Source of the DNA: a virus
DNA: 28,403 nt
Virus record (IMG/VR): IMGVR_UViG_3300017527_000567
Location: 1-28,403 of that record
Strand: one strand, 5' to 3'
Positions 3,053 through 21,310 of the stretch are shown piece by piece. A program made the translations under genes and the position numbers. Every line of letters starts with the position of its first letter. Position 1 is the stretch's first letter. The notes under the pieces were generated by a model. That model saw only the letters and a program-made list of their open reading frames with translations. It was not told the origin of the DNA and did no database searches.

Positions 3053-3071
3053 TACTTAATAAGTATAACTT

Positions 3072-3105: not shown

Positions 3106-3113
3106 GGTGGTTG

Positions 3114-3781: not shown

Positions 3782-3956
3782 ATTTAAGAAGAAGAAACTC
3801 GAAAGAATGAAAGTTGAATGTGCAAAAGCTGAAATGGAAATGAGAATTTTCGAAGCCGAAGAAAACATTGAGAGACTTCAAAAGAATATATTAGTGCAAG
3901 AAAAAAGAATGAAAGAGTTAGATGAGGAAATAAACAACTTTAACAAAGAGGTATAA
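3774..3956 (+). CDS. Small coiled-coil protein
   Basis: 60 residues, almost wholly charged, with heptad-like spacing throughout and no strand-forming stretch; predicted to be a single long helix or coiled coil. It overlaps the previous gene by 8 bases and stops two bases before the next ATG, so it sits in a tightly coupled run. Ribosome site is weak. Function unknown; a small oligomeric linker or trimerisation helper for the neighbouring fibre-like proteins is possible but unsupported by any motif. Confidence 0.55.
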   Translation: MLEFKKKKLERMKVECAKAEMEMRIFEAEENIERLQKNILVQEKRMKELDEEINNFNKEV

Positions 3957-3958
3957 TC

Positions 3959-4780
3959 ATGGCTGATTACGATTCAAGTCTTCCAGTAAGAACGGAAGCA
4001 CCGGGCGACGTTGACATTTTCATTAGTGACGCAACAACTCCCGCACAAAAACTTAAAGTCAATGCTGATGGAAGTATTGATACAAACTTCGCTCCAGGAA
4101 GTGAAATTGGTATAACAGATGGAACTGATTCATTAGAGATTAATGCTGATGGTTCTATTAACTCAGTAGTTACGGCAACTGACTTAGACATTCGTGACCT
4201 TGCATTTGCTACGGATTCTGTAGATGTATCAGGTTCAACTGTTACGGCAACAGCGACTGACTTAGATATTAGAGATTTAGTTTTTGCAACTGATAAAGTA
4301 GATGTAAGTGGATCTTCAGTAACAGTTTCTGCAACCGATTTAGATATTCGTGATCTATCAGCTGCTCAAGATTCTGTTGAAGCTCATTTAAAAGATGGCT
4401 CTGGTGCAGATTATACAAGTGCAAATCCTCTTCCAGTATCAATGTCAGCGGCGATTCCAGGTGATGAAATTGTTGATTATAATACAAGTGCTGCTGTTGC
4501 AAAAAATGCTTCAGTTAATCATGATTATACAGTATCAGCAGGAAAAGAATTTCTAGGTGATGAAGCTTGGATTTCTGGATCTGGAAAACTTAAAGCTGAA
4601 TTACTTGTTAATGGATCGGTTGTTTGGGTTGGTTTTAATTCAACTTCAAATCCTAATATTAGAATTCCAACTGAAATGATTCTTAAAGCTCAAGCGGCTG
4701 AAGTTATCAGGTTCACAATCACTAACAGAGATAAACAACCACAAGACGTTTATTCAACTCTTGCAGGTGTGGAAGTATAA
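3959..4780 (+). CDS. Repeat-containing head-fibre / decoration-like virion protein
   Basis: 273 residues, ATG at 3959 behind AAAGAGGT. N-terminus includes two NADGSI motifs (residues about 37 and 61), a style seen in phage virion proteins. Then three 26-residue tandem repeats begin ATDLDIRDL at residues about 73, 99 and 125. The C-terminal 90 residues form a beta-rich domain (DYTVSAGKEF, WISGSGKL, VIRFTITNRDK) that parallels the C-terminus of the protein at 3368-3781. The ATDLDIRDL repeat style is one I associate with environmental phage head/tail accessory proteins. Probably a trimeric fibre or decoration with repeats as shaft and sandwich as knob; location after the capsid gene favours a head position, but a tail position cannot be excluded. 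Confidence 0.65.
   Translation: MADYDSSLPVRTEAPGDVDIFISDATTPAQKLKVNADGSIDTNFAPGSEIGITDGTDSLEINADGSINSVVTATDLDIRDLAFATDSVDVSGSTVTATATDLDIRDLVFATDKVDVSGSSVTVSATDLDIRDLSAAQDSVEAHLKDGSGADYTSANPLPVSMSAAIPGDEIVDYNTSAAVAKNASVNHDYTVSAGKEFLGDEAWISGSGKLKAELLVNGSVVWVGFNSTSNPNIRIPTEMILKAQAAEVIRFTITNRDKQPQDVYSTLAGVEV
4175..4408 (+). repeat. Three 78-bp tandem coding repeats
   Basis: Units at 4175-4252, 4253-4330 and 4331-4408 each encode 26 residues starting ATDLDIRDL; units 1 and 2 also share FATD-x-VDVSGS. The third unit diverges after ATDLDIRDL. Codons for identical residues differ among copies (for instance CGT versus AGA for Arg), so the repeats are maintained at protein level and are not a recent DNA duplication. 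Confidence 0.85.
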
Positions 4781-4783
4781 TAG

Positions 4784-5149
4784 ATGGCTGATATAAGCGA
4801 ATCACAACAATCAGAAGTAGTAAGGATTTCGGGTAAGGAAGAAAATAACTTATCCGAAGTTAATACGCTTGGTGAATTAGCAACCAACGACACTCCACAA
4901 CAAGGGTTGTCTGGGGTTTTAAATTTAACAACAACTGCACAAGAATTGAAAGTCGGAGCTTCTGCTTTAGTTAATAGAAAAACAATTGAGATGCAAGCTC
5001 TCGATAAAAATGTAAAGTGGGGATACAATACAAATTGTGAATTTGATTTATTCAAGAATCAATTTTTTGCTTTACCCGCAGGAGAGAATTGCACTCTCTA
5101 TTTAAAAGCATCAACTGGAACTGCAGCTGTTGCAGTAAGCGAGAAATAA
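4784..5149 (+). CDS. Small virion accessory protein, decoration/head-fibre type
   Basis: 121 residues, ATG 3 bases after the previous stop. The first third is polar and Ser/Glu-rich (ISESQQSEVVRISGKEEN), and the last 70 residues form a small beta domain: LVNRKTIEMQALDKNVKWGYN, FFALPAGENCTLYLKA, TAAVAVSEK. The sequence 'R-K-x-(I/L)-x-x-(Q)-N/L ... (V)-x-(W/Y)-x-G-(Y) ... G ... (L)-Y-(L)-x-A-x-x-G-T-x-x-(V)-x-V-x-E' is a widespread signature of small phage structural proteins found near coat or fibre genes. Stop is immediately followed by the next ATG. Exact virion position unknown. Confidence 0.6.
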   Translation: MADISESQQSEVVRISGKEENNLSEVNTLGELATNDTPQQGLSGVLNLTTTAQELKVGASALVNRKTIEMQALDKNVKWGYNTNCEFDLFKNQFFALPAGENCTLYLKASTGTAAVAVSEK

Positions 5150-5620
5150 ATGGGCGCACCTTTTACTTTTCCAGTAGCGCAAGCAACACCATACGATAAT
5201 AGTGATAGTGGTTTAGTTGCTGAAAATGTTAAAGATGCAATTGACGAATTAAAGGAACAATTAAACGTAGCTGTCTTTACAATTCCATTAGTATATAATG
5301 GAACAATAAGCTCAGATAGATTTATAAGTTATTCCAACTTGACACCAAATTCACCGATTGTAATTCCTGTAAACTCTGAATTCACAGGTTTTACTTTTTC
5401 TAACTCGAGAAATGGTGCTGATTTTGGTTTGGAATTTAGAAGTAACACAACAACTGGAACAGCTTTTTATAGTGTTTCAAAAAACAATACAAGATTTTTT
5501 GCAGACAATAACCCAAGTCAAATATTTAATGCCGGTGACACAATTACTGTAAAATATTTAGATGAAGGTGGAAATTCGAATGATGTAGTAATCGTTCTGG
5601 CATTTAGGGCAATTTTATGA
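5150..5620 (+). CDS. Fibre-associated virion protein
   Basis: 156 residues; ATG directly abuts the previous stop codon, so translation is presumably coupled. Residues about 20-36 (GLVAENVKDAIDELKEQ) match the 'V-x-x-A-I-(D/E)-E-L' motif that is very common near the N-terminus of phage fibre and baseplate proteins. The remainder is beta-rich with many Asn, Ser and Thr and ends TVKYLDEGGNSNDVVIVLAF. Likely an adaptor plus a small knob domain in the decoration/fibre cluster. No enzymatic motif. It ends in an ATGA overlap with the next gene. Confidence 0.6.
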   Translation: MGAPFTFPVAQATPYDNSDSGLVAENVKDAIDELKEQLNVAVFTIPLVYNGTISSDRFISYSNLTPNSPIVIPVNSEFTGFTFSNSRNGADFGLEFRSNTTTGTAFYSVSKNNTRFFADNNPSQIFNAGDTITVKYLDEGGNSNDVVIVLAFRAIL

Positions 5621-6729
5621 GTTATGGCAATTTTATGATCTACATTAAAAATATTTCTGGTACTTCTCTAACCATTAGAGGTAACAGCATTAACAATAGT
5701 GCTTATTACTTAATACCACTAGTTGAGGTTGATGACTGGGCAAGTGATTCAAATGTGTTTACATTGATAGCTGATGGTGATGCTCAAATTGCTAAAGATG
5801 ATAGTGGAACAGGTGATATATCTGAGGTTACAGAACAATGGGAATACTTAACAAGAATTGTGCCTGAAGTTATTGATGTTGGTCTAGGAACTCTAGTTGG
5901 TGCTCAAGGCGAGCAAGGTGAAACTGGTGAAAATGGTTTTGGTATATATGCTTTTAGTAATACATCATCTAATGGAACTGTTTTAAAAGCTAGAGGTTTG
6001 ACAGTAAGTAAAACAGCAACAGGAACATATCAATATTCTTTTACCACAGCAACACCAGATGCAAACTATATTCCAACAGCTTCATTTTTTAATTTAGGAA
6101 CTAATACAGATACAAATTATTTTATAGATAATAAAACCGTTAATGGCTTTACTCTTACAACAGGTGTTGGTGACAATGGTACAAGTGTTGATACTCTTGC
6201 AGATTTAAACCATGGTGTTACTGTTTTAGGTGATGCATCACCACAGGGTATCACATCAGCATATGAAGCATGGTTAAGTTTAGGCAATACTGGCACAGAA
6301 CAAGATTTTCTCGACACACTGGTAGGTGAGCAAGGTATTCAAGGTATTCAAGGTGTGCCAGGTGGTTTTGCAAATTATAGCTATGCAGAAAGTGAATCTG
6401 AAAGCAGCACCACAAGTTCCAGTTATCAACAAAAATTAAAACTGACTACACCCTCGCTATCTTCAGGTAATTATTTAATACAATTCTACTGTGAGATCAC
6501 CAGCACTAACAATGATGGCATGGCGGCAATTGTAGAATTAGACGACACAACAACAATCGCAGAAATAGAAGATGACAGACATCATTCAGAAAACTACTTC
6601 AAACCGTTTTCTGGTTTTAAGCAAGTTGCCTTAACAAGTGGTGTACATGAAATTGATATTGATTACAAAAGAGATGGTGGAACTGCAAAGATAAGACGAG
6701 CAAGAATATCTATTACAGGGGTAAGTTAA
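5617..6729 (+). CDS. Collagen-like fibre protein
   Basis: 370 residues. Two short collagen-like G-x-y tracts: residues 95-107 (GAQGEQGETGENG) and 237-250 (GEQGIQGIQGVPGG). Just before the second lies TSAYEAWLSLGNTGTEQDF (213-231), a motif that recurs beside collagen-like tracts in many phage tail/head fibre proteins. Between them is a beta-rich domain; the C-terminal 115 residues form a further beta domain with SGVHEIDIDYKRDGG, C1q/TNF-like in style. The collagen triplets imply a trimeric stalk. Start is ATG 5617 in ATGA overlap; ATG 5635 is an alternative, preceded by a copy of the same 13 bases. Location suggests a head fibre or neck fibre; a tail fibre is also possible. Confidence 0.7.
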   Translation: MSYGNFMIYIKNISGTSLTIRGNSINNSAYYLIPLVEVDDWASDSNVFTLIADGDAQIAKDDSGTGDISEVTEQWEYLTRIVPEVIDVGLGTLVGAQGEQGETGENGFGIYAFSNTSSNGTVLKARGLTVSKTATGTYQYSFTTATPDANYIPTASFFNLGTNTDTNYFIDNKTVNGFTLTTGVGDNGTSVDTLADLNHGVTVLGDASPQGITSAYEAWLSLGNTGTEQDFLDTLVGEQGIQGIQGVPGGFANYSYAESESESSTTSSSYQQKLKLTTPSLSSGNYLIQFYCEITSTNNDGMAAIVELDDTTTIAEIEDDRHHSENYFKPFSGFKQVALTSGVHEIDIDYKRDGGTAKIRRARISITGVS

Positions 6730-7361
6730 TGCAATTTTTAATAAGTGAAACATTAAACAGCAAAGTTTATACGCCTAGATTAGAGGTTGAAATAAATGAA
6801 AGCTCTATAAATGAAACATTAGAAAGAATTGATACTGAAGGCGATACTATAAATATTGTGTTTTTATCTGTGCTATCTCAAGAAAGTATTTCTATTTTAA
6901 ATAATATAATTGCTAGTCATAATGGCGAATCATACCCAAAGGAACATCATGTGCAAAAGGTTGAAATTAATACACCTATTGTAAACAATGCTTTTGCAAA
7001 TAAAGGTAATCATCATTTTAGGGGTACGGGTAAAAAATACATTTGTAACGCCAATGCAACAACGTCTTGTGAGTTTGAACTGTCTTATACACACGTAAAG
7101 TTTAACGGTGTTAATATTTTAAACGGTAATATTGGTGATACTTGCAACTTAAAAGTTTTGGATAATGCTTCTGGTACATTCTCAACTATACCAAATTATA
7201 CTTTAGATCAATTTGGTTTTGATTGGAACATTACTGACTCAAAAGAATTATTGCCATATGTAGCAGACTTGTATCAAACAATGAGAATAGTAATTGAATA
7301 CACAAATAACACAGGTAGTGAAACAGAGATTTTTGTTAACTACTATATACATGAAGAGTAA
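6729..7361 (+). CDS. Hypothetical virion protein
   Basis: 210 residues, starting in a TAATG overlap with the collagen-like fibre gene. N-terminal alpha/beta segment (INETLERIDTEGDTINIVFLSVLSQ), then a beta-rich remainder with two cysteines in CNANATTSCEFEL and a third in GDTCNLKV. The content resembles a beta-sandwich structural module, without repeats or transmembrane segments. No family recognised. Because it is coupled to the fibre gene and precedes the connector genes, it is most simply a fibre-associated or decoration protein; its N-terminal part could be the attachment domain. Confidence 0.55.
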   Translation: MQFLISETLNSKVYTPRLEVEINESSINETLERIDTEGDTINIVFLSVLSQESISILNNIIASHNGESYPKEHHVQKVEINTPIVNNAFANKGNHHFRGTGKKYICNANATTSCEFELSYTHVKFNGVNILNGNIGDTCNLKVLDNASGTFSTIPNYTLDQFGFDWNITDSKELLPYVADLYQTMRIVIEYTNNTGSETEIFVNYYIHEE

Positions 7362-7362
7362 A

Positions 7363-7842
7363 ATGAGAATTATAACTATAGGTTTTTCAACACCAAAAAG
7401 GCTTAAACTAGCTTCTAGTTTAATAAGATGTTTTGAAAATTCTAGTTATTCGCATATATACATTAAAATGGAAGCATCATCTGATAGTAAACTACCTTTT
7501 GCAAAGGTGTTTCAAGCAAGTCATGGTGACGTTAATGCTGTTTCATATGATGTATTTAAAGAAAGCAACAAGATATTCCACGAATATGAGATTGTGGTAA
7601 CAAGTGAAAAGTACTTTGAAGTAGCTACATGGTTATGGCATCAACTAGGTAAACCATATGGTTTTTTGCAATTGCTTGGAATTGCCTTTAAGGTCAAGTT
7701 AAGTAACAATAGAAATGATAGATTTATTTGTTCTGAACTAGCTGGTATGATTTTAAAGACTTTTTTAAACTATGACATAAGCGAGTCTCTTGATTATATA
7801 GGTTTAAATGATGTTAAAGATATTTTAGAGAATAGAGGGTGA
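7363..7842 (+). CDS. Permuted NlpC/P60-like (YiiX/YebB-type) papain-fold hydrolase
   Basis: 159 residues from ATG 7363 (ATG 7351 is an in-frame alternative inside the previous gene; the longer frame to 7294 is not supported). The opening IGFSTPKRLKLASSLIRCFE and SYSHIYIKM place the catalytic His at 31, and the last conserved motif FICSEL places the nucleophile Cys at 123. His before Cys is the order of the circularly permuted papain-like amidases (YiiX/YebB group). GKPYGFLQLLG and the closing IGLNDVKDIL also match that family. These enzymes cut amide or acyl bonds in peptidoglycan or lipids. No signal peptide or lysis neighbour is seen; it lies between fibre genes and connector genes, so it may be a virion-borne wall-opening enzyme or act in maturation. 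Substrate is not determinable here. Confidence 0.7.
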   Translation: MRIITIGFSTPKRLKLASSLIRCFENSSYSHIYIKMEASSDSKLPFAKVFQASHGDVNAVSYDVFKESNKIFHEYEIVVTSEKYFEVATWLWHQLGKPYGFLQLLGIAFKVKLSNNRNDRFICSELAGMILKTFLNYDISESLDYIGLNDVKDILENRG

Positions 7843-7844
7843 AA

Positions 7845-8639
7845 ATGAGCGACTTATTAGTAATGCATAACGACAACGGATCATTTACGGATTACTCGAG
7901 AGATGCAAAGGATTATTTAAGAGATGATTTTAACATTGTATTTGAATCTGCTAATGATGTTCTTTATATCGGTTTATATAAGCCTTTTGGTGATTTTTAT
8001 ATTGAAATTGATACACCAACAACTCCAGGAGAACTTTCCTTCGAAATAAATGGAAATCCTGTTGCTGTTCAAGATGATACAAAGAATCTTTCTAGATCTG
8101 GATTTATGAAGTTCGAAAAGCCTTATAATTGGGCATCTTCATCGATTAATGGTGTAGAGGCTTATTGGCTTCAAGTAGATTCATCAATTGATTTTGATAT
8201 TAACTTTAGAGGAATCAATGTTGTTTTCTCTGACGATAACGATCTAGCACAAGAAATGAGGAATATTGATGCATTAAAAGCAAAAGGTGATAATTCATTT
8301 ATTGCTTACCATGTAGCTTCTAGAAATGAGATTATCCAGAGTTTAAGAAATGGTGGATACAGCAAAAGATTCGATGATATGGTGGCAAATATAACTAAGT
8401 GGGATATTCTCGACCTTGGAGAGATTCGCCAAGCTTCTAAGTATCTAGCACTGGCAAAAATATGTTTCGATATATCTTTAAATGTTGATGATAAGTTTTA
8501 TTCTAAGTTTAGAGATTATGAAGGAATGTTTGGAGCAGCTTTTAAGTTGTTTTATCTAAAGCTAGATCAAAATGATGATGGCAAATATGAAGAACAAGAA
8601 GATTTAACCGACGGAACAATAGAGATTCTAAGAGTATGA
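7845..8639 (+). CDS. Head-tail connector (neck) protein
   Basis: 264 residues from ATG 7845, preferred over GTG 7839 because GAGG at 7835-7838 has proper spacing only to the ATG. The N-terminal 130 residues form a beta-rich carbohydrate-binding-like domain (EAYWLQVDSSIDFDI). The C-terminal half is helical: WDILDLGEIRQASKYLALAK followed by a YLK-type helix and an acidic DQNDDGKYEEQE tail. Helix bundles of this kind, with 'W-D-x-x-D-L ... A-x-x-Y-x-(A/L)-(L)' and a negatively charged end, occur in gp6/gp15-type connectors that seat below the portal. It overlaps the next gene by 4 bases and precedes the tail terminator, the normal position of an adaptor. Fusion of an extra N-terminal domain is somewhat unusual. 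Confidence 0.55.
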   Translation: MSDLLVMHNDNGSFTDYSRDAKDYLRDDFNIVFESANDVLYIGLYKPFGDFYIEIDTPTTPGELSFEINGNPVAVQDDTKNLSRSGFMKFEKPYNWASSSINGVEAYWLQVDSSIDFDINFRGINVVFSDDNDLAQEMRNIDALKAKGDNSFIAYHVASRNEIIQSLRNGGYSKRFDDMVANITKWDILDLGEIRQASKYLALAKICFDISLNVDDKFYSKFRDYEGMFGAAFKLFYLKLDQNDDGKYEEQEDLTDGTIEILRV

Positions 8640-10583: not shown

Positions 10584-12389
10584 ATGGCAAATACTATAAC
10601 TGTTGAGCTAAATTTAGATGATAAAACAGCAAAAACAAAGCTGAATAAATTTGAACAAAAAGCCAAACAAAAAGGTTCACAAGCCGGAGAATCTTTTGGA
10701 AAAGGTTTTGCAAAGTCTTTTGCGGGTAATGTCGGAGCTAATCTAGTTGGAGCGGCTTTTAGAGGCATAACATCGGAACTTGGAAATATAGTTAAAGCTG
10801 GTCAAAGCCTAGAAGTAATAGAAGTTCAATTTCAAACTCTTTTAAAATCTTCAAAATTAGCACAAAAACAATTAAGTGATTTACAAGACTTCGCTGCTTC
10901 AACTCCATTTCAAATAGAAGGTTTGGCAGTATCAACAAGACAATTATTATCTTTTGGTGTAGCTCAAGAAAAAATCATTCCTACATTAAGACAATTAGGG
11001 GATTTAGCGGCGGCTTCAGGATCTAGAATAGATGAACTAACAATTCCATTTGGAAGATTGGTTTCAACTCAAAAATTAACATTAATAGAATTAGATAAAT
11101 TTGCCGATAGAGGTATTAATCTATTCGGTCAATTATCAAAACAAACAGGTATATCTTTAGGAGAAATCAGAGACGCTGTTTCTAAAGGTCAAATTCCTTT
11201 TAGTGAATTTACAAAAGCTCTAGACACATTAACTGGTAAGGGTGGATTATTTTTCAATGCAACACAAAAGCAATCGAAAACTCTTTCTGGTGTATTATCA
11301 ACTCTAGGCGATAATCTATTTAATCTTAGAGCAAATTTAGGAAAACTTTTTTCTCCATTAATAATAAAGGCGGCTGAAGCTTTAACGAAATCATTTCAAA
11401 GTCTCGGTAAGAGTGTTAAGGAAATAAAAATTCAAGATGTTCAAAAAGACTTCGTTGCATTTAATCGTGGTGTTATTGATTACCTTATTCAGCCATTGGA
11501 ATTATTTGGAAACATTGGAAAGATAGTTTTTGATGGAGTTAGATTAGCAATTCAAGGCGTTGTTGCTTCATTAGGTTTTCTAGGTGGTAAAATAGCAGAC
11601 TTCTTGAACAAATTAAGAATAGACAACGATACAACTAAAGGTTTGCAAAATTTTTCTGAAACAAGTGCGAAGGTGTTTGAAGATTTTGCAAATCAAGCTA
11701 ATGCTTCTGTTGGATCTGTATTTGATACACCTATTTCAGATAAAGCGGCAATGTTCAATGATGAACTTTCAACTGCACTAGAAACGACGAAAGCAATAAC
11801 AACAAATGCAATGAGCAATGTTAAAACAAGCTTAAAAACATTACCAAAAGAACTTTCAAAAACAGCAATAGCAGCTAATAGAATAATAAATACTGGAATA
11901 TCAAAAACAATTGCAGGTGGAATTCAAAATGTAATTCAATCGATTGCTAAAGGTGAAAATGCCTTAGAAAATTTTGGCAAGTTCTTATTATCGACATTCG
12001 GTGATCTTGCAATCCAATTAGGAACATTTTATATTGCTCAAGGTGTAGCTCAAGCGGCGTTAATATCTCTAGGAGAGCCGGCTTCACAAATAGCTGCAGG
12101 AGCGGCGTTAGTTGCACTTGGATCTATAATGAAAGCTTTTGCCGGTGGTGGAAGTTCTGGAGCTTCATCAAGTAATTCTGCAACTGGTGGTGGAGCACTT
12201 GCAACACAATCAGAAAGTGGATTAGCAACTAGCGAGGATTTACAAGATCGACAAACATCAACAGTTTTCAACATAGAAGTTCAAGGATCACTTGTTCAAC
12301 AAGAAGAACTTGGAAGATTTATAACAGAAGTTCAAAACGAATCGAGAGAAAAGAACGGAATAATTGATACAAATGTAAGGATAGCTTAA
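10584..12389 (+). CDS. Tape measure protein
   Basis: 601 residues, ATG at 10584 after AAGGATTAAG. The N-terminal domain (VELNLDDKTAKTKLNKFEQKA, then GQSLEVIEVQFQTLLKSS and STPFQIEGLAVSTRQLLSFG, and IDELTIPFGRLVSTQKL) matches the conserved phage tape-measure N-terminal domain. The middle is amphipathic helix, and about residues 465-520 are strongly hydrophobic (AIQLGTFYIAQGVAQAALI and AAGAALVALGSIMKAFAGG), suited to membrane insertion during DNA delivery. At about 1.5 angstrom per residue this length would specify a tail of roughly 90 nm, which is an estimate. No lysozyme or peptidase motif is visible. It follows the chaperone genes and overlaps the next gene by TAATG-type coupling. Confidence 0.92.
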   Translation: MANTITVELNLDDKTAKTKLNKFEQKAKQKGSQAGESFGKGFAKSFAGNVGANLVGAAFRGITSELGNIVKAGQSLEVIEVQFQTLLKSSKLAQKQLSDLQDFAASTPFQIEGLAVSTRQLLSFGVAQEKIIPTLRQLGDLAAASGSRIDELTIPFGRLVSTQKLTLIELDKFADRGINLFGQLSKQTGISLGEIRDAVSKGQIPFSEFTKALDTLTGKGGLFFNATQKQSKTLSGVLSTLGDNLFNLRANLGKLFSPLIIKAAEALTKSFQSLGKSVKEIKIQDVQKDFVAFNRGVIDYLIQPLELFGNIGKIVFDGVRLAIQGVVASLGFLGGKIADFLNKLRIDNDTTKGLQNFSETSAKVFEDFANQANASVGSVFDTPISDKAAMFNDELSTALETTKAITTNAMSNVKTSLKTLPKELSKTAIAANRIINTGISKTIAGGIQNVIQSIAKGENALENFGKFLLSTFGDLAIQLGTFYIAQGVAQAALISLGEPASQIAAGAALVALGSIMKAFAGGGSSGASSSNSATGGGALATQSESGLATSEDLQDRQTSTVFNIEVQGSLVQQEELGRFITEVQNESREKNGIIDTNVRIA

Positions 12390-13153
12390 TGAGCATTGAA
12401 ACATATTCGGCTTTTACTTATGGGCACACAATAACAGATGATAATAAGTTTATAAATATAAACGAAGGATCTGGAGAGATTGCATGTGTCATTGAAATTG
12501 GAAGTTATAGTTTGGGAGAGTTTGTAAACAAGGTTTCCGAAGCTCTTAATAATAGTGGAAGTCTAGAATACGATGTTTCGATAGATAGAAACACCAGGAA
12601 GATTACAATTTCATCAACTTCAGCCTTTGATTTACTTATTTCATCTGGAGCAAATGCATCAAGTTCGGCTTATGAATTAATTGGCTTTACTGGTGCAGAT
12701 CAAACAGGTTTATTAACTTACGAAGGAGATGAATCAAGTGGTGAATATTATCAGCCACAAAACATACTACAATCGTACATTGATTTCACTCAAAGCTTTA
12801 AAACAACTAATGCCTCAGTGAATCAATCAGCCTCTGGAGTTGTTGAAGTTGTAAGTTATGGGAAAATACGATTCATGAATTGTAATATTGCACCCATAAG
12901 AGACGGTGAAAACTTCGGATTCATGTTAGACGATCTTCAAGCAGAACAAAACATACTTAATTTTATAAATTATGCGTCAAGCAAAGCAAAAATCGAGTTT
13001 ATACCCGACGTCAACAATCCTAGCACTTTTACAAAATGCTTGTTAGAATCAACTAGAGAAAGTAAACAAGGCGTCGATTTCGATTTGAAACCATATCAAA
13101 AACTATTTAAGTGGTATCAGTCTGGAGCATTGACTTTTAGGGAGCTAAAATAA
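12389..13153 (+). CDS. Tail-tip / distal tail-like protein
   Basis: 254 residues, coupled to the tape measure gene (its ATG overlaps the stop). N-terminal half is beta-rich: INEGSGEIACVIEIGSYSLG, then a helix FVNKVSEALNNSG, and IDRNTRKITISSTSAFDLL, a strand-rich motif ('S-(Y)-(S/T)-L-x-E-(F) ... (V)-(D/N)-R-x-T-(R)-K-I-T-I-(S)') that is widespread in siphophage tail proteins after the tape measure. The C-terminal half includes GKIRFMNCNIAPIRDGENFG and ends with a WYQSGALTFRELK segment. Likely a baseplate or distal tail protein that joins tube and hub. Exact class is not certain. Confidence 0.6.
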   Translation: MSIETYSAFTYGHTITDDNKFININEGSGEIACVIEIGSYSLGEFVNKVSEALNNSGSLEYDVSIDRNTRKITISSTSAFDLLISSGANASSSAYELIGFTGADQTGLLTYEGDESSGEYYQPQNILQSYIDFTQSFKTTNASVNQSASGVVEVVSYGKIRFMNCNIAPIRDGENFGFMLDDLQAEQNILNFINYASSKAKIEFIPDVNNPSTFTKCLLESTRESKQGVDFDLKPYQKLFKWYQSGALTFRELK

Positions 13154-13629
13154 TGCCTATAGTATTTGGATCAAAATTACAGTCTCAAATTGCAAACGAA
13201 ACTTGGCTTGATAAAACGCAAGACGATGCAACAGTTGGAAAGGTATCACTTAACGAGCCTTCATCTTCATCAATTTCAGATGCTCAACTTCAAATAAACA
13301 AAAATAAGAAAGTTATATTTGGCGAATCAACTAAATCAGATGGCGATCAATTGACACCCGACACCGAATCAATGGATCAAGAATTCAGAATGATAGGAAA
13401 CGGAGCTCCAGTAACATTGAATGCACTTCCTTTTGATTCACAACCTTTAGACGGAGCTGACATTAAACTTATTGGTCATTCCGATAGTTTTTCTGTTACG
13501 ATTTCACTTAATGATTCGCAGTATGGTTGTTATATAAATGGTGATGCAACTTTAAAAAGAGGTTACATTTTATCACTTCGATACAATGATGAACTTGAGA
13601 GATATTTAGAGATTGGGAGAAATTTTTAA
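13153..13629 (+). CDS. Tail-tip accessory protein
   Basis: 158 residues; ATG overlaps the previous stop (TAATG). Low-complexity Ser/Asp/Asn-rich N-terminal half (SLNEPSSSSISDAQLQINKN), then a beta domain with TLNALPFDSQPLDGADIKLIGHSDSFSVTI and a final ERYLEIGRNF strand. The 'G-A-D-I-x-L-x-G-x-S' turn-rich domain resembles small adaptor proteins placed between tail tip and fibre. It is coupled to both neighbours. No family recognised; an attachment subunit for the next, large fibre is a reasonable guess. Confidence 0.5.
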   Translation: MPIVFGSKLQSQIANETWLDKTQDDATVGKVSLNEPSSSSISDAQLQINKNKKVIFGESTKSDGDQLTPDTESMDQEFRMIGNGAPVTLNALPFDSQPLDGADIKLIGHSDSFSVTISLNDSQYGCYINGDATLKRGYILSLRYNDELERYLEIGRNF

Positions 13630-16169
13630 TGAAACTATTTTTACTATTATTAGTGATACCTGTTTATGTTTTTGCACAATTTACAAGTGGAACAACCAAG
13701 CAAATAGATCAAATCAATAACAACACACAGCTGGATATTATCCTAAATCCAACAAACACTGTTAAGGTCAATAACTTTTCTGGAAACTTTGCACTTCAAT
13801 CAGGATCATTAAAAGAACTTGAAGAATCAGCAACAACAAACACAGAACTAGGTTATGTTTCTGGTGTTACTTCATCAATACAAACACAAATCGATTCAAA
13901 ACAAGACAACCTTCCACTAGATACGGATGGCGATCTTTTGTATTTCAATTCTGGAATGTCAAAGCTTGGTATTGGAACTAATGGTCAGTTACTAAGAGTT
14001 TCAGCACTTGGTTTTCCAGAATGGGCAGACGTTATAAGTGTTTCGGTAACAACAAAAGGTGACATTCAAACTTATTCAACACAACCAGATAGATTGGGAG
14101 TTGGAACAGACGGTCAAGTCTTAATTGCTGATAGTGCCGAAGCAACCGGATTAAAGTGGGGAACAATAACAAGTTCGCCAACAACAACAGAAGGTGATTT
14201 AATTTTGAGAGGAGCAACAGAAGATGAAAGACTTGCAATTGGAACTGCAAATCAACTTCTTACTTCCAATGGAACAACTGCTTCATGGCAAGATGCTCCA
14301 GTTTCAACAACTCTTACAACAAAGGGTGACATTCAAACCTACGATACTGCAAATCAAAGACTAGCAGTTGGTGATGATAACTCTTATCTAGTTGCTGATT
14401 CTAGTGAGCCAACAGGTTTAAGATGGGATGATAAAATTGTTACTGCTATAAATGCTGTAACTGATTGGGAAGATTATACACCTACTTTAAGTTGGGTTAG
14501 CGGTGTTTCTGAAAATACTGCCGAATATAGACGGGTGGGTGACACCTTAGAGGTTACTGGTAGAATAAAAATAAGTGGCGCAGTTACAGCATCTACTTTA
14601 AGCATATCATTACCAAGTGGTTTAAATATAGACACCGCAAAGATTGATATGTCTGCTAGGTCATCGCAGCGACCAGATAGAGGCACTTGGTCTTGGATGG
14701 ATTACTCTACATCGCAAAGATGGAGAACCACTTGGGATAACACTAATTTTTATACACCTTTAGTCGCACCAGAAAACGGATCAACTAATTCAGTTGTACT
14801 CACTGGTAATGAGAGCCTAGTGTCATCAACAGCGCCTTTAATATGGTCAGTAGATGACGAAATTGTATATAACTTCAATTTCCCAATAGTCGGTTGGCAA
14901 TCAGGAGCATCAGCAGCGATCCAAGAAATGGATTTATCTGCTAGTACTGCGAATGAATTGAGTGCGGTAATTAATGCGACAACATGTGCAGTTGAATCAG
15001 AGAACTTTGATGGATGGATAACATCGTCAGTAGTTGTCGGAAGTGAGTCATGTGGGGTAACTTATTCAGGTCTTGGGTTAAGTGACATACCGAGTCTATC
15101 CAATGGAAATGCCTTTATATCAAATGGTAGGGCGCAGATGGTTGGAAATCCATCTATAAACTATGTGACGTTGTATTGTGTAGATACGACAACAAATGCA
15201 GTCGCTACTAATTGCGGCAAGTTCCACCTTCAATTATCAAAACAAGGCGCAGACGTTAACAAGTCACAGATAATCACAGGAACATTTGAGGGGATTAATT
15301 CTAGTGAGCTTTACTATGGTGAGTTTAGAAGATCGACAGCACAATCTATTCCATCATCACCGACACCGCCAACAGCTGTTGTGTATAACGAGGTTTTAAA
15401 TGGCTCCAATACTGGTAATTGGTATAACACTTCTACAGGTGTATTCACAGCCCCTAGAAACGGCAACTTTACTTTTTGCCCCAAGGTGCTTTATGACACA
15501 GTTGCTTGGAACATTGGATCAGCAAGTCAAATGGATTTATCAACAACTCTATACCAACACAACCTACAAAGAGATGAGATAAAAACAACAAATTCAGATT
15601 ATTACCCACTGGGGAAATGTATGACAACATACATGAATGAGGGAAACACGGCAAGTGTGCTACTTTATCATAATGATGGAACCACTAAGACGCTGATTGC
15701 GGCAGGCACATTTAACACTCTCACAATAACTGAATCAGCAACAACAGAATCAATTATCAAAAACCTAAATGATAATAATAATGTTGAGTGTGAGACTAAA
15801 ATACTGTCATCTAGTTTTAATTCAAATGGAACTATAAGTGATTTAACTTTCAATAATCTTGTTGTTGGGAAAAAATACAAATACCATGTTAAACTTCAAT
15901 TGGGCGGAACTACGGGGGCGGTTACAGACAAGCAATGGGAAGGGAATGTCACGCACAATGGGGCAGGAATTACCTATTTGAATATGAGAGTTCAAAACAG
16001 CGGAACCACAAGGATGATCGTTGGTGATGAGTTGTATTTTACAGCAACGGGCACTAGTATAACCGTTAACGCATCAATTAGACAAAACATGCAGGTTTTC
16101 GGTGATGCGGGCGGGGCGAACTCAAGAGCAACTTTGTGTTTACTGCCAGATAATACAATCTTAAACTAA
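13629..16169 (+). CDS. Large fibre protein with N-terminal signal peptide
   Basis: 846 residues. Residues 1-16 (MKLFLLLLVIPVYVFA) are a classical Sec signal peptide with a V-F-A cleavage site before QF. A short linker leads to GYVSGVTSSIQTQIDSKQ (75-92), a motif found in phage fibres; four ~45-residue repeats follow (about 99-266), then a domain starting DYTPTLSWVSGVSENTAEYRR (282-302). The C-terminal half has C1q/TNF-like elements (GVFTAPRNGNFTF). All eight cysteines lie in the C-terminal half, in four nearby pairs. A tail fibre inside the cytoplasm does not need export; exported fibre-like adhesins are known in Bdellovibrio. So this may be a tail fibre whose N-terminus came from such a gene, or a phage-encoded surface adhesin. 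The last 270 bases are GC-rich against the rest. Confidence 0.7.
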   Translation: MKLFLLLLVIPVYVFAQFTSGTTKQIDQINNNTQLDIILNPTNTVKVNNFSGNFALQSGSLKELEESATTNTELGYVSGVTSSIQTQIDSKQDNLPLDTDGDLLYFNSGMSKLGIGTNGQLLRVSALGFPEWADVISVSVTTKGDIQTYSTQPDRLGVGTDGQVLIADSAEATGLKWGTITSSPTTTEGDLILRGATEDERLAIGTANQLLTSNGTTASWQDAPVSTTLTTKGDIQTYDTANQRLAVGDDNSYLVADSSEPTGLRWDDKIVTAINAVTDWEDYTPTLSWVSGVSENTAEYRRVGDTLEVTGRIKISGAVTASTLSISLPSGLNIDTAKIDMSARSSQRPDRGTWSWMDYSTSQRWRTTWDNTNFYTPLVAPENGSTNSVVLTGNESLVSSTAPLIWSVDDEIVYNFNFPIVGWQSGASAAIQEMDLSASTANELSAVINATTCAVESENFDGWITSSVVVGSESCGVTYSGLGLSDIPSLSNGNAFISNGRAQMVGNPSINYVTLYCVDTTTNAVATNCGKFHLQLSKQGADVNKSQIITGTFEGINSSELYYGEFRRSTAQSIPSSPTPPTAVVYNEVLNGSNTGNWYNTSTGVFTAPRNGNFTFCPKVLYDTVAWNIGSASQMDLSTTLYQHNLQRDEIKTTNSDYYPLGKCMTTYMNEGNTASVLLYHNDGTTKTLIAAGTFNTLTITESATTESIIKNLNDNNNVECETKILSSSFNSNGTISDLTFNNLVVGKKYKYHVKLQLGGTTGAVTDKQWEGNVTHNGAGITYLNMRVQNSGTTRMIVGDELYFTATGTSITVNASIRQNMQVFGDAGGANSRATLCLLPDNTILN
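13923..14426 (+). repeat. Four ~45-residue fibre repeats
   Basis: Residues about 99-132, 143-177, 188-220 and 232-266 share the pattern (D/K/E)-G-D-(L/I) ... (R/K)-L-x-(I/V)-G-(T/D) ... (Q)-(L/Y)-L-x-(A/S) ... (G/S)-x-(P/L/S)-(E/R/K/S)-W. The second and fourth are closest (both begin TTKGDIQTY and end TGL-x-W). The repeats probably form a trimeric fibre shaft. Confidence 0.75.
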
Positions 16170-16178
16170 GAGGGATAT

Positions 16179-16694
16179 ATGAGACTTATAATTCTAACAT
16201 TACTTTTATTATCATTTAGCGCACTAGCTGAATTTAAAGTTGAATACATTGAAACATCAACTGGTGGAACTTATAGTTTTGAGAAAAACACAGAAGCTAA
16301 AGCAAAGACTCGCTTAATTAAGATCATCAAGAAGTCACAGTGGATGCAAGGCGAATGGAATCAAGTTGAATCACCTATCTCTAAGGAAGAGAAGTACACT
16401 GATGCAGTTGATACTGGTGAGACTCAAACTATTCAAGATATAGAAGGTAATGATATTGAAGTTCCTATCTATACTTATGAAGAGAAAACTAGATTAACTT
16501 ACTTTCACCCAAGTAACTTCACTTATACGATCACTGATATTACTCAAGAGCTTGCAGATAAAGCAGCAGATAAACAAGCTGACAAAAACGAAAGAATTGC
16601 CATTAAAGCTATGAAGTCAGAAATTAATGCATCTGACTTACCTGTTTGGCATAAAAGAATATTAAAGAAACTAATCAAAGATATGAGAGATTAA
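16179..16694 (+). CDS. Exported protein of the fibre gene pair
   Basis: 171 residues with AGAGGG upstream. Residues 1-17 (MRLIILTLLLLSFSALA) form a Sec signal peptide with an A-L-A cleavage site before EF, making it the second exported product in a row. The mature part has a beta-rich first half (EYIETSTGGTYSFEKN, TQTIQDIEGNDIEVPIYTY) and a charged helical second half (QELADKAADKQADKNERIA) ending with a Lys/Arg-rich helix. No known domain is recognised. Coupled start and matching export signal suggest it works with the preceding fibre, for example as an attachment, trimerisation or folding partner in the periplasm or at the surface. It overlaps the start of the holin-like gene. Confidence 0.6.
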   Translation: MRLIILTLLLLSFSALAEFKVEYIETSTGGTYSFEKNTEAKAKTRLIKIIKKSQWMQGEWNQVESPISKEEKYTDAVDTGETQTIQDIEGNDIEVPIYTYEEKTRLTYFHPSNFTYTITDITQELADKAADKQADKNERIAIKAMKSEINASDLPVWHKRILKKLIKDMRD

Positions 16695-16876
16695 TGACAA
16701 ATCAAGAGCTTTACAAAGAAATTAAAGAACTTCGTGGTGATGTAAAGAAAGTTGAAGATGAAGTTAAAGTTTTAAATAAAGAATTTTATTTATTTAAAGG
16801 AAAAGCTTTTGGATTTATTACAATACTAAGTGGTATATTTACTTTTATAGGTAATTTAATAACAAAAAAATTCTAA
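16694..16876 (+). CDS. Holin-like small membrane protein (XhlA-like layout)
   Basis: 60 residues, TAATG overlap with the previous gene. Residues 1-34 are a charged coiled coil (ELYKEIKELRGDVKKVEDEV), and about 38-55 are one transmembrane segment (AFGFITILSGIFTFIGNLI) followed by a short basic tail. This coiled-coil plus single-TM layout is that of XhlA-type and similar small phage lysis membrane proteins. Lysis role is supported by the spanin-like genes following. A tail-anchored structural membrane protein is an alternative. Confidence 0.6.
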   Translation: MTNQELYKEIKELRGDVKKVEDEVKVLNKEFYLFKGKAFGFITILSGIFTFIGNLITKKF

Positions 16877-16887
16877 GGAGATTAGGA

Positions 16888-17127
16888 ATGAGCGTAGGAA
16901 ATGAAAAACTAAAAGAACTAGCTGGTGCAATCGATGAAATGGTTGAAATTGGAGAAGACATTTTCAAGGATGGGGTTGATATGACAGATATTGCACACCT
17001 TCCAAGACTTGCAAATCCAGTTCAAAAGATTTACGGATTAATTTCTGAAATCAAAGCACTAGGTGAAGAGGCGAAAGATCTAGATTGGAAAGAGTTCGGC
17101 GAAATCATAGCACAATTCAATGACTAG
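16888..17127 (+). CDS. Small helical protein in lysis group
   Basis: 79 residues, with a perfect AAGGAG site; bases 16875-16892 are identical to 1598-1615 upstream of the scaffold gene. All-helical, acidic, no transmembrane segment: ELAGAIDEMVEIGEDIFKDG, TDIAHLPRLANPVQKIYG and a closing acidic helix ending EIIAQFND. Small proteins of this style ('... G-(V/I)-x-(M/L)-x-D-(I/V)-x-x-L-P-x-L ... (I)-x-x-(L)-x-E') often lie between holin and spanin genes in tailed phages, with unknown role. It overlaps the next gene by 8 bases. Confidence 0.6.
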   Translation: MSVGNEKLKELAGAIDEMVEIGEDIFKDGVDMTDIAHLPRLANPVQKIYGLISEIKALGEEAKDLDWKEFGEIIAQFND

Positions 17128-17341
17128 TTTAGTAACGGCACTCTTTGGAGTGACAAAACATATTCTAGGTATTTATGAGAAAAAAGAAGCTCGCAAATAT
17201 CTAGATCGTGTTATCTATTTAGAAAAACAATACATCAAGGAAACTTCCAAAAATGAAGAAGATATTGATACTAACGCTATTGACCACATTCTTATCGAGT
17301 TGCGCATCATTAGCGAAGCCTCTCTTACCTTTAAAGAGTAG
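17120..17341 (+). CDS. Possible inner-membrane spanin-like protein
   Basis: 73 residues. N-terminal weakly hydrophobic segment (TSLVTALFGVTKHILGIY) is followed by charged helices (ARKYLDRVIYLEKQYIKET, IDHILIELRIISEA). Its 3' end overlaps, in another frame, the start of a lipoprotein gene (17253-17341 shared), the arrangement of Rz/Rz1 spanin genes. The hydrophobic segment is short for a full membrane anchor, so i-spanin identity is not secure; small phage proteins with a 'K-Y-x-D-(K/R)-V-I-x-L-E-(K)' helix occur beside lysis genes. Probably acts with the lipoprotein in outer-membrane disruption. Confidence 0.5.
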   Translation: MTSLVTALFGVTKHILGIYEKKEARKYLDRVIYLEKQYIKETSKNEEDIDTNAIDHILIELRIISEASLTFKE

Positions 17342-17510
17342 AACACTTTATATAGATACGGAAAAGGCAATACTTTATTCAACTTACAAAACATGTAAGG
17401 GCTTTATATTTAAAAAATGTAAGCTTAACAGAATAGAATATGACTTTTCTAAAAAGGATGTTCGTGTAAAACTTAAAGCAACAGGTTTTAAACTAAAGGT
17501 AACAAGATAA
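17253..17510 (+). CDS. Lipoprotein, o-spanin-like (Rz1-type)
   Basis: 85 residues, ATG 17253 inside the previous gene in another frame (89-base overlap). MKKILILTLLTTFLSSC is a lipoprotein signal with lipobox L14-S-S-C17; the +2 residue is Ala, so outer-membrane sorting is expected. The mature part is short and basic (LPLKSRTLYID, then GFIFKKCKLNRIEYDFSKKD, with three cysteines in total). Overlap with a possible i-spanin gene, small size and lipid anchor make it an Rz1-like outer-membrane spanin subunit, though Rz1 proteins are usually Pro-rich and this is not. A moron lipoprotein (for instance exclusion of other phages) is the alternative. Implies a Gram-negative envelope. Confidence 0.6.
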   Translation: MKKILILTLLTTFLSSCASLAKPLLPLKSRTLYIDTEKAILYSTYKTCKGFIFKKCKLNRIEYDFSKKDVRVKLKATGFKLKVTR

Positions 17511-17511
17511 G

Positions 17512-19917
17512 ATGGCTATTGATCTAACTCCAGAAAATCAATCACTTGCTAAACAGATTAATCTTAATCCACAAGCAATACTTGAAATAGAAGGATTGGA
17601 TCTAGTTTTTGGAGCTCAACCAGTTGTTGAATTAACCAAGTGGGATTTGAATCCAAACATTGAATGGGATCAAGAAGGTGTTAATTGGGATGGCACAACA
17701 TTAATCGATGGATCTAGAGATTACATTGATCTTTCATCTTCAACACAAGATATTACTCAACAGATTTTGCCAGACAAGGGCGGATCATCGAGTGTAAGTT
17801 CAGTAGATATTCAACTTGTTGATAAAGATAGTGAAGTTTCCAAAGCAATGTCGTTTGATAACATAGAAGAAATACTTGGAAAGAGAGCAAATTTTTATAT
17901 TGGATTCAAGGAAGCTTCGTTTCCAGAATCAGCAATTCCGGTGTTTCGTGGAGTTGTTGTCGATTTTTTCACACAAGATGGGGCGGTCATGGTTTCGATT
18001 GCACATCCAGAGGCATTAAAGCGACAAGTAATCTATCAGCAATATCAAAGTGAACTAACAAGCGACATAAATGATTCAACTACGACTATTTCAGTTGTAA
18101 CAACTGCAGACTTAATTGAATCGGCAGACATTCAAACAACGTGCATAAAGATTGATGAAGAAGTAATGAGAGTTGTTTCAATTGATAACATCAACCAACT
18201 AACAGTTGAGCGTGGATATGAAGGAACAATTGCTCAAAGCCATGAAGATGAAAACGAAGTGACATCGATCTATATTTTGGAAGAAAAGCCTTTGGAGTTA
18301 GCATTGAAGCTTATGCTATCACAAGAAGGAAATCCATTTTTCTTATCAGATGATAAGCCAAGTTGCATAATCGGCAACAAACTTATATTCGATTATTTTA
18401 ATATTCAAGATCTAACAGGATTGGTTAAAGATGATATTATTCGACTTACTGGAACTAATGCTGGTGATTATACTGTTAAAAGCTTTTCTATCTTGGATAC
18501 TGGATCAGCCATAGAAGTAAATGAAACTCTAGTTGATGAAGTAGAATTCCTAGGTGATTTTTCTTATAAAAGTAAATATGCAGTTTTAAATGATGGCTTG
18601 GGAATGTATAGCTTCCAGGTAGATGTAAAACAACATGAAAACATAAATGCTTTTAATCCTTCTTTATTCGTTGATTACAAATTCTATTTAAAAGATTCTG
18701 TTGATGAGCCACAAGATTTCTTATCGTCGCAGGTTTATTTTCCTCAAGGATTATACACAATAAACAGATCTGCTAGAGCTTCAGTCAAGCAAGTAAACCC
18801 ACCTTTGAGCGTAGACATTGTTCCAACAATAAACACCGATAACATCACAAACATAACTAAAATCAAGCAAAGAAGATCGCTTCATAAGTATCTTTATAAT
18901 ATTTATCGATATGATTACAATGAAGACATAATAGAAGATAAAACACTAACTAAGAAGATTATCGTTTCACAGGATTCTTTAAACAGAATTAAAGGTGGAA
19001 AGAAGCAACTTAGAATAGAGTCGAAAGGCTTGAGAGATAATGCTCCCACAACATTAAACATTCAACAAATTTCTCAAAGAATAGTTGATCGCTATCGTTA
19101 TGCTCCGACATACTTCCAAAATATAGAAGTAAAATTCTCTGATGCTTTTAATTTAGAAGTTGGGGATGTTTTGCCATTTGGGGGAACTGATACCAAGGTT
19201 GTTGATCTTCAAACCGGTCAAAGAGGCAGTGCAGAAAAACTTTATGAATTAATCAATAAAAAGCTAAACATTCGAACTGGTAAAATCTCAATCGATATTT
19301 TAGAAACAGCATTTAATATTAACGCTCGTAGTGCCGTTATAAGCCTTGCAAGTGAAACTGGTGCTAACAATACAACTACACGATTACAATTGAAACTCAG
19401 CTATTCTGTTGGGGAATACGCTAAAGAAACCGACAAGTGGCAAGATTTTTCTGGAAAGAGGGTTCGAGTTTATAATAGTGCTTACAGCCAAGATGAAATT
19501 GTCGAGTTTGTTGGAATAGATCCTTCAAATTCTGATTATATCTTGATTGATACACTCTCTTTTATTCCAACAGAAGATTTTATTGTCGAAGTTCCAAAAT
19601 ATGACGATACAGACGAGCTTATAGATTCGGCATATAAGTTAAGATTTGCTTATTGGAACGCCGTTCCATTAATAACTTCTGTAACTGACGACAAGACATT
19701 TGATGTTGATCGACCAGGTGATCTTGTTGTTGGATCTGAAATTTATGTTAATAGCAAAGATTATACAAACGACTCCTTTGGAAATACAATTACAATAGAG
19801 AGCATAATCGGAAACACAATAACACTTTCTGAAGATTTGCCATTCACTCCTTTAGTTGATGATTTGGTTCAATTCAGTAATTATGTTGATGGTGGTTTTC
19901 CATATCAAATAATATGA
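17512..19917 (+). CDS. Tail hub / baseplate protein
   Basis: 801 residues, starting 2 bases after the lipoprotein stop. N-terminal domain (about 1-175) with FYIGFKEASFPESAIPVFRG and QDGAVMVSIAHPEALKR resembles the baseplate hub (gp27-like) fold. An inserted segment around residues 190-250 contains IKIDEEVMRVVSI and QLTVERGYEGTIAQSH, a motif recurring in phage tail proteins. The central region (KIKQRRSLHKYLYNIYRYDYNED, QISQRIVDRYRYAP, NLEVGDVLPFG) is typical of tail hub middle domains, and the C-terminus holds two small beta domains. The hub closes the tail tube and carries fibres. Placing it behind the lysis genes, 5 kb from the tape measure gene, is unusual. Confidence 0.75.
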   Translation: MAIDLTPENQSLAKQINLNPQAILEIEGLDLVFGAQPVVELTKWDLNPNIEWDQEGVNWDGTTLIDGSRDYIDLSSSTQDITQQILPDKGGSSSVSSVDIQLVDKDSEVSKAMSFDNIEEILGKRANFYIGFKEASFPESAIPVFRGVVVDFFTQDGAVMVSIAHPEALKRQVIYQQYQSELTSDINDSTTTISVVTTADLIESADIQTTCIKIDEEVMRVVSIDNINQLTVERGYEGTIAQSHEDENEVTSIYILEEKPLELALKLMLSQEGNPFFLSDDKPSCIIGNKLIFDYFNIQDLTGLVKDDIIRLTGTNAGDYTVKSFSILDTGSAIEVNETLVDEVEFLGDFSYKSKYAVLNDGLGMYSFQVDVKQHENINAFNPSLFVDYKFYLKDSVDEPQDFLSSQVYFPQGLYTINRSARASVKQVNPPLSVDIVPTINTDNITNITKIKQRRSLHKYLYNIYRYDYNEDIIEDKTLTKKIIVSQDSLNRIKGGKKQLRIESKGLRDNAPTTLNIQQISQRIVDRYRYAPTYFQNIEVKFSDAFNLEVGDVLPFGGTDTKVVDLQTGQRGSAEKLYELINKKLNIRTGKISIDILETAFNINARSAVISLASETGANNTTTRLQLKLSYSVGEYAKETDKWQDFSGKRVRVYNSAYSQDEIVEFVGIDPSNSDYILIDTLSFIPTEDFIVEVPKYDDTDELIDSAYKLRFAYWNAVPLITSVTDDKTFDVDRPGDLVVGSEIYVNSKDYTNDSFGNTITIESIIGNTITLSEDLPFTPLVDDLVQFSNYVDGGFPYQII

Positions 19918-20480: not shown

Positions 20481-20909
20481 ATGAGTAATTATACACCACT
20501 AGTAAATAGTGAGTTGATAACGTACAATACAGGTAATATTATAATTGAGAGTGATAACGTGGTCGAAACAAGTTACACGATGCCTTATGATGCTCTTGTT
20601 CTTGTTGAGGAAGTCAGAGGTAATTCCGGCGGTAACGGTGTTCATGTAGAATTTGATTTTAGAAAAGGTGTTGGATTGTTTCTTGATGGGGTGACACCAG
20701 ATCTTGTTTGGAGATCAGGGTCTCTCGGAGAGTATCGAACAACACAATCTATCGGTTCGCCAGATCCCTATGCACAGCATACAGCAGAATTTAATGATTT
20801 TACTTATGTTAGATCAGGAACAAAGCTTTGTGTTATAGATCGAACAAGCCCAACAAGTAAGAACGCCAACATAACCATAAAACTTAGATTTTTTAAAATA
20901 AACAGATAA
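20481..20909 (+). CDS. Small tail-tip virion protein
   Basis: 142 residues with CAGGAG before ATG 20481. Beta-rich throughout, with YTMPYDALVLVEEVRG, GVHVEFDFRKGVGLFLDG, and a final NANITIKLRFFKI strand; Ser/Thr/Asn-rich. No repeats or catalytic motif. It resembles the compact jelly-roll-type modules that phages place next to fibre tips. Its stop overlaps the ATG of the endolysin gene (TAATG). Function inferred from context only. Confidence 0.55.
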   Translation: MSNYTPLVNSELITYNTGNIIIESDNVVETSYTMPYDALVLVEEVRGNSGGNGVHVEFDFRKGVGLFLDGVTPDLVWRSGSLGEYRTTQSIGSPDPYAQHTAEFNDFTYVRSGTKLCVIDRTSPTSKNANITIKLRFFKINR

Positions 20910-21310
20910 TGAAATTTAAAAACGAGAGAGATAAAGAATTGTTTTACTTATTGCACCCAGCTTTAATTATGATTTATACAGACCTAAATTGGTATGCAAA
21001 GTCTAATTATAATATTGATTTAACAATTACCCAAACAGTGACAACAAAAGAATTAGATCGTAAGTATAATCGTGTTTCGGATTCACATCGAACAGCGAGA
21101 GCTATTGATATACGAACAAAAAATATCGATTTGATAATCTTACAAGACCTTATTTATTATATAAACAACAAATGGGGTTATAAAAAGTTTCATTACATGG
21201 CGAAAAGTGGTGCTAAAAGGCTTGCTTACTACCATGAAGGAACTGCAGAACATATTCATTTAGCCATACACAAAAAATACCAAACTAAGTTTAAGTATCC
21301 GGTTGAGTAA
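20909..21310 (+). CDS. M15-family peptidase endolysin (VanY/Ply-like)
   Basis: 133 residues. The zinc site of D-Ala-D-Ala / L-Ala-D-Glu peptidases (M15) is visible: SDSHRTARAIDIR gives ligands His60 and Asp67, and EHIHLAIHKKY gives catalytic Glu114 and the third ligand His117 (E-x-x-H). The region between has YYINNKWGYKKFHYMAKSG. No signal peptide and no separate wall-binding domain, so it would rely on a holin or on damage to the inner membrane for access. It would cut the peptide part of peptidoglycan. It is coupled to the preceding tail gene and followed at once by two hairpins. It lies 3.4 kb from the small lysis genes. Confidence 0.85.
   Translation: MKFKNERDKELFYLLHPALIMIYTDLNWYAKSNYNIDLTITQTVTTKELDRKYNRVSDSHRTARAIDIRTKNIDLIILQDLIYYINNKWGYKKFHYMAKSGAKRLAYYHEGTAEHIHLAIHKKYQTKFKYPVE

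Follow-up and report, generated by a model that had tools for sequence, protein, structure and literature searches.

Tailed-phage virions are, to our knowledge, taken to be built in the cytosol, and the question raised by the locus considered here is why the gene for a phage tail fibre should begin with a signal for export. The window (the whole stretch of DNA analysed, 28,403 nucleotides) is a complete 28.4-kb IMG/VR record, consisting of a single virus contig; it encodes both a major capsid protein and a tape measure protein, and a bacterial chromosome is ruled out. The genes of the tail region all lie on the plus strand. The tape measure protein (10584-12389; Pfam TMP_3, E=5.7e-22; PHROG 9959, E=2.8e-46) is followed by a conserved tail protein that appears distal-tail-like by its position (12389-13153), directly upstream of a short cytosolic fibre base of 158 aa without a signal peptide (13153-13629). 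The ORF of interest (13629-16169) encodes 846 aa, which we read as a distal tail fibre or receptor-binding protein with an N-terminal Sec signal peptide. Downstream are a second protein with a predicted signal for export, the fibre's companion (16179-16694), a group of small genes that probably form a lysis cassette (16694-17510) and a large hub-like tail protein (17512-19917) that serves as a marker of the lineage.

The hub-like protein gives an indication of the host. It has no relatives among 50,697 phage records and has relatives in 3 of 369 Bdellovibrionota genomes, namely the prophage of genome G035 (E=1e-106), G153 (E=1e-101) and a fragment in G356; a match in G023 was rejected as an unrelated ATPase. 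Eight IMG/VR contigs also carry relatives, one of these being the G035 prophage again, and in L089 and L090 no fibre gene adjoins the hub. Together with the comparison to phage phi1422 presented below, these relatives make Bdellovibrionota the likely hosts, as an earlier reading made from the sequence alone had guessed, and the virus probably infects predatory Bdellovibrio-like bacteria. For the window, as for the related or comparable viruses L003, L086, L087, L103 and MW202898, the host is assigned indirectly. Elsewhere in the window, a small protein (20909-21310) has an M15-peptidase-like histidine pattern without a Pfam or PHROG match and is a possible endolysin, and a protein with a PAPS-reductase domain (27161-27943; Pfam E=1.4e-11) adjoins an HNH protein. 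Between the capsid and tail genes (3368-8639) there are several fibre-like or decoration-like genes without signal peptides, among them one (5617-6729) with tail-fibre PHROG matches and collagen-like stretches. Judged by eye, the genes at the matching place in L003 differ.

The fibre ORF begins MKLFLLLLVIPVYVFA/QF, where the slash marks the predicted SPase I site (VFA/Q) at the end of a 16-aa Sec signal peptide (13629-13676). Signal peptides were called with our own heuristic for the n-, h- and c-regions combined with conservation, not with SignalP. When the 49 proteins of the window were scanned in this way, strong signal peptides were found in three only: the fibre, the adjacent companion and a lipoprotein at 17253-17510. 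The score of the fibre was 6.0, and whole-protein shuffles reached 5.0 in 82 of 100,000 trials. The start codon at 13629 is preceded closely by a GGGAG Shine-Dalgarno sequence and forms a TAATG stop/start overlap with the upstream tail gene. In L003, a contig from another metagenome, both gene order and overlap agree with the window, and the fibre starts with MLKIIVFTLAFIPSIIFG, which has diverged from the signal sequence of the window yet is still a signal sequence; in the homologues generally, the n/h/c regions and the SPase I site are kept despite sequence divergence. The 16-residue signal peptide proposed in the sequence-only reading is therefore borne out by its score, by the translation signals and by its diverged counterpart in L003. 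Homologues with a true start beyond residue 16, which would have spoken against that proposal, were not found; the start is sound, and L003 keeps the overlap together with a signal peptide of its own. Within the tail operon, the gene lies immediately 3' of those for the tail tip and base. Tail fibres are usually synthesised and folded in the cytosol, and because a signal peptide is predicted here the protein is best regarded as a variant rather than an ordinary tail fibre. Both halves of the earlier proposal, a fibre and an anomalous export signal, thus appear to hold at the level of sequence, and the features described point to a true Sec substrate, which would actually be exported.

Comparison within the lineage suggests what kind of fibre this is. 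Between the window and L003, identity is 52% for the upstream tail protein, 58% for the base, 57% for the hub and 76% for the first ~75 residues of the mature fibre, compared with about 25-29% elsewhere in the fibre. The mature N-terminus (residues 17-91; 13677-13901) is thus better conserved than any other stretch of the tail genes compared, and it is probably the docking region and the start of the shaft. Three relatives identified through the hub, L086, L087 and G153, have exported fibres at the same position with differing tips: L086 has tail-collar domains, L087 an S74 chaperone-protease and G153 a cysteine-rich protein. The distal fibre lacks a signal in two others, L091 and G035, and the latter has it fused to the base. 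The N-terminus of the window base is homologous to the start of this fused cytosolic fibre (E 1e-4), and one domain of the window fibre recurs in the cytosolic distal fibre of L091 (E=1.7e-8). Since the domain is shared with L091 and the base matches G035, the exported protein is most simply a distal receptor-binding module that is separate from its base. A comparable sharing of domains (E=2e-16) links the exported fibre of MW202898 to the cytosolic distal fibre of G273. These comparisons are compatible with either direction of change, that is, with gain of the signal in the window lineage or its loss in G035 and L091.

The companion begins MRLIILTLLLLSFSALA/E and has counterparts with signal peptides in L003 (12245-12796) and L086 (8483-8896); it is absent from the 369 host (Bdellovibrionota) genomes. 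A match in G245 was rejected as a chance match between signal peptides, and the small gene that occupies the companion's place in L092 (640-963) encodes no signal peptide. The companion may be a chaperone or partner of the fibre that acts in the same compartment, a possibility that fits equally well with a fibre in the virion and a fibre on the host surface. The lysis-like genes that follow encode a protein with one TM segment (16694-16876), two small proteins (16888-17127 and 17120-17341) and the lipoprotein (17253-17510). The last of these has an LSSC lipobox, resembles an o-spanin and overlaps 17120-17341 out of frame, in the manner of a nested spanin-like pair; similar overlapping lipoproteins adjoin the hub in L003, L086 and G153.

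The distal part of the fibre is divided into several regions. Residues 277-425 (14457-14903; DWEDYTPT...PIVGWQSG) form a domain that is common to the exported fibres of MW202898, phi1422 (gp68) and the prophage in G148, and that is found in part in the cytosolic fibre of L091. An inserted stretch (residues 450-557; 14976-15299), missing in L003, bears C453, C475, C517 and C529. It is followed by a C1q/TNF-like head domain (residues 558-708; 15300-15752) with C617 and C664, assigned from AlphaFold2, Foldseek and weak sequence matches, and by a C-terminal domain (residues 709-846; 15753-16166) with C721 and C837, both of which are kept in L003. Modelled alone from eight sequences, the head gave a C1q-like fold (pLDDT 77.9, pTM 0.79), and a longer segment, residues 445-846, modelled with a two-sequence alignment, gave a poor model (pLDDT 38.8). 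The top PDB match of the head model in Foldseek was the C1q trimer of cerebellin-1 (Cbln1; E=1e-7), and the phage receptor-binding heads of phi812 (central spike knob/petal, 9eul) and TM4 (Gp23, 9n6a) match too, with the same fold. The model thus suggests a tip fold that is known from receptor-binding proteins.

All eight cysteines of the fibre (453, 475, 517, 529, 617, 664, 721 and 837) are C-terminal, and the earlier statement that they fall in the C-terminal half is correct. The further statement that they form four close pairs needs to be modified; with spacings of 22, 12, 47 and 116 only two of the pairs are close, although the pairing itself is backed by L003. In this relative the last four cysteines are kept (609/656, with the same 47-residue spacing, 703 and 806) and the inserted stretch that bears the other four is missing, so that gain or loss between the two fibres has occurred in even numbers, which supports the idea of pairing. 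More generally, the mature cysteine count is even in 10 of 11 complete exported fibres (p=0.006), the sole exception being that of MW202898 with five, and mean cysteine density is 1.04% in exported fibres versus 0.28% in cytosolic bases and fibres from the same kinds of phage (Mann-Whitney p=0.0006); some of the proteins compared are homologous, which makes both p-values optimistic. The even-cysteine pattern fits maturation in an oxidising compartment.

The arrangement is not confined to this lineage. Directly after a cytosolic fibre base, a signal peptide recurs not only in further phages of the family but also in podoviruses, a phi1422-like prophage and phi1422 itself (gp68). In L076, a P22-like podovirus contig in a Bdellovibrionaceae MAG, a cytosolic attachment protein of 185 aa is overlapped by an exported fibre that starts MKQFKFILILSLVLVLNSLAFA/D. 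A second podovirus that shares the attachment domain, L103, has two exported proteins after its lysis-like genes, with holin-like and spanin-like genes intervening; these proteins are consecutive (2890-5791), and the first (2890-5133) has VSTT-type repeats unlike those of the other fibres. The GenBank podovirus MW202898 encodes an exported C1q fibre if translation starts at M12. In this gene (14098-16851 of L107, annotated as a caprin-2 domain protein), the annotated start has no Shine-Dalgarno sequence, and M12 has one together with a signal peptide; the public annotation probably hides the signal peptide. The most telling case is phage phi1422, a cultured, lytic myophage of Bdellovibrio bacteriovorus (PMC3391216). 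Immediately following its tail fibre gp67 is gp68, a protein that begins MKFMIAFIIALFSVTMATA/Q and contains eight cysteines; the counterpart in the phi1422-like prophage of G148 begins MKLFLLLSLFFTNVVLA/Q and contains ten. Separately from gp68, phi1422 encodes a second exported protein of 170 aa, gp75 (L108, 44298-44810), with two mature cysteines. Shine-Dalgarno-like sites precede all of the exported-fibre starts examined, and in the cases examined the core is followed by an SPase I site (VFA/Q, AQA/Q, ATA/Q, VLA/Q or AFA/D).

Comparable fibres from other phages served as controls; these sets were picked by hand and are not a survey of base rates. Signal peptides are absent from all the tail-fibre genes of the phi1422-group phages CP-T1 (Vibrio), 56 (Aeromonas), ZF40 (Pectobacterium) and phiPLPE (Iodobacter), from the downstream fibre genes of five podoviruses that share the L076 attachment domain (L093, L094, L096, L099 and L102), and from those fibres of Microcystis, Microbacterium, NCTB and Yoloswag phages whose repeats also occur in the window or L076. 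Among Bdellovibrionota phages themselves, the fibres of G035, L091, G273, G038 (a different myophage) and phi1402 have no signal peptide, and in phi1402 no exported fibre adjoins the collar protein. Most of the weak baseplate matches were unrelated or were set aside. The exported-fibre trait is therefore common among Bdellovibrionota phages but not universal. Searches of open-access literature turned up no description of a signal peptide on the fibre of a tailed phage.

What might an exported fibre do? One answer, the main rival to the reading preferred below although less likely than not, is that it acts on the infected host rather than in the virion. Placed on the envelope of the predator, it would mask the phage receptor or alter adhesion, and might thereby exclude superinfecting phages, free progeny from debris or change the way the cell adheres. 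The signal peptide and the exported companion are as expected on this view, the host itself displays exported trimeric phage-like fibres on its surface (PMC10769870), and a receptor-binding module free of the virion would presumably mask receptors efficiently. Against it, the gene lies inside the tail operon and is coupled to tail genes, the domains of the protein are common to cytosolic distal fibres in sister phages, and the lytic phage phi1422 also has an exported fibre (PMC3391216). These three points weaken the suggestion in the sequence-only reading that the phage equips its host with a new surface adhesin, and because phi1422 is lytic we set lysogenic conversion low. In addition, the fibre contains no recognised cell-surface anchor domain and no N-terminal domain like that of the host MAT adhesins. 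It is improbable that the hydrophobic N-terminus stays uncleaved and, as a membrane anchor or a plug, holds the fibre on the membrane or the tail. The hydrophobic cores are strong and cleavage is a prediction, but the cores are also short, plausible SPase I sites follow them in the cases examined, and the cysteine parity would be better explained in an oxidising compartment.

A still slimmer chance attaches to the idea that the phage has captured the gene for an exported host adhesin. Bdellovibrio MATs have a signal peptide with a conserved ~130-aa beta-rich domain right after it (PMC10769870). The window fibre has the signal peptide, an adhesive C1q/TNF-like tip of the kind that some MATs possess (PMC10769870) and a GYVSGVTSSIQTQLDSK repeat in common with secreted host fibres, but phage fibres are just as typically built with such tips and repeats, and the ~130-aa domain is missing. 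A profile of this domain, built from six chromosomal Bdellovibrionota exported fibres that were assumed to be MAT-like and did not include the HD100 MATs, gave no match to any of the phage exported fibres (E at least 0.25, the best phage value being 0.25). A first scan of the Bdellovibrionota genomes with the mature N-terminus of the window fibre was empty, and otherwise only the generic GYVSGVTSSIQTQLDSK repeat was shared with host fibres; the companion, as noted, is likewise missing from the host genomes. An origin or identity as a host trimeric adhesin is therefore unsupported. The resemblance to MATs is nevertheless real, in that both are exported, phage-fibre-like proteins with signal peptides and variable tips, including TNF/C1q-like and S74 (PMC10769870), and the exported fibre of L087 ends in S74 as do some MATs. 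They differ in that MATs are chromosomal and carry the ~130-aa domain, whereas the phage fibres lack it and are encoded in a tail operon beside a cytosolic base. Finally, a single sequence alone would leave room for an artefact, due to a wrong start codon or a chance hydrophobic N-terminus, but the Shine-Dalgarno-like sites, the conserved stop/start overlap, the recurrence in unrelated phages and the shuffle test make this very improbable.

The reading that we prefer, and to which we give about an even chance, is that the distal subunit, which binds the receptor, leaves the cytoplasm, is oxidised in the periplasm and joins the virion at lysis. The tail-operon position, the signal peptide, the paired cysteines and the lysis-like neighbours together suggest export, oxidation, trimerisation and late joining. 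According to this proposal, the fibre would be the distal receptor-binding tail-fibre subunit of a Bdellovibrionota phage, translated late and coupled to the tail genes, while the cytosolic base would be incorporated into the virion in the cytoplasm. The signal peptide would direct the fibre to the periplasm and be processed there, where the protein would trimerise through its C1q-like head and gain disulfides. Base and fibre would meet once the membrane is breached at lysis, the fibre docking to become part of the virion, so that the final step of assembly would take place outside the cytoplasm. The supporting data (signal peptide, coupling, conservation, recurrence, cysteine parity, C1q-like fold and domain sharing) derive from sequences and their comparison. 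Some observations count against the proposal. The phages G035, L091, G273, G038 and phi1402 manage without a signal, and export is therefore not obligatory for Bdellovibrionota phages; the window base has only 158 aa; the cysteine count of the MW202898 fibre is odd; and the exported fibres compared have no common mature N-terminus, so that a general docking motif is not visible. The broader form of the proposal, that Bdellovibrionota tailed phages of three unrelated virion types mature a fibre by Sec export and disulfide formation in the periplasm and complete the virion only at lysis, is held more tentatively, its chances falling somewhat short of even.

Elements of this scheme have precedents. 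The long fibres of T4 have a two-part design, with proximal and distal receptor-binding polypeptides, and classically the fibres of this phage attach to otherwise finished particles in lysates. In the case of LtfA/LtfB of the T5-like phage DT57C (PMC4728585), the fibre likewise consists of several polypeptides, with virion-proximal and distal receptor-binding parts, and fibres of this type combine a conserved N-terminus with a variable tip. These classical two-part fibres fold in the cytosol, whereas the distal part in the window has a predicted Sec signal and paired cysteines. Late use of the host Sec system by tailed phages is known from exported endolysins, such as Lys44 of fOg44 and the SAR endolysins (PMC6116005), which differ in being lysis enzymes and not tail fibres.

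That a Sec signal recurs on distal fibres suggests that the virion may be finished in part outside the cytoplasm. The presence of this signal in unrelated phages of one bacterial phylum would break the rule of cytosolic assembly, and the cultured phage phi1422 makes that rule testable. If the fibre is in the virion, a virion part matures in the periplasm, and receptor-binding proteins stabilised by disulfides would have a natural route of formation. Otherwise, infected predators would produce a late, exported adhesin of a new kind that binds receptors. In either case, a cytosolic base with an exported, cysteine-paired fibre after it is a signature that may help to spot the phages of predatory bacteria in metagenomes.
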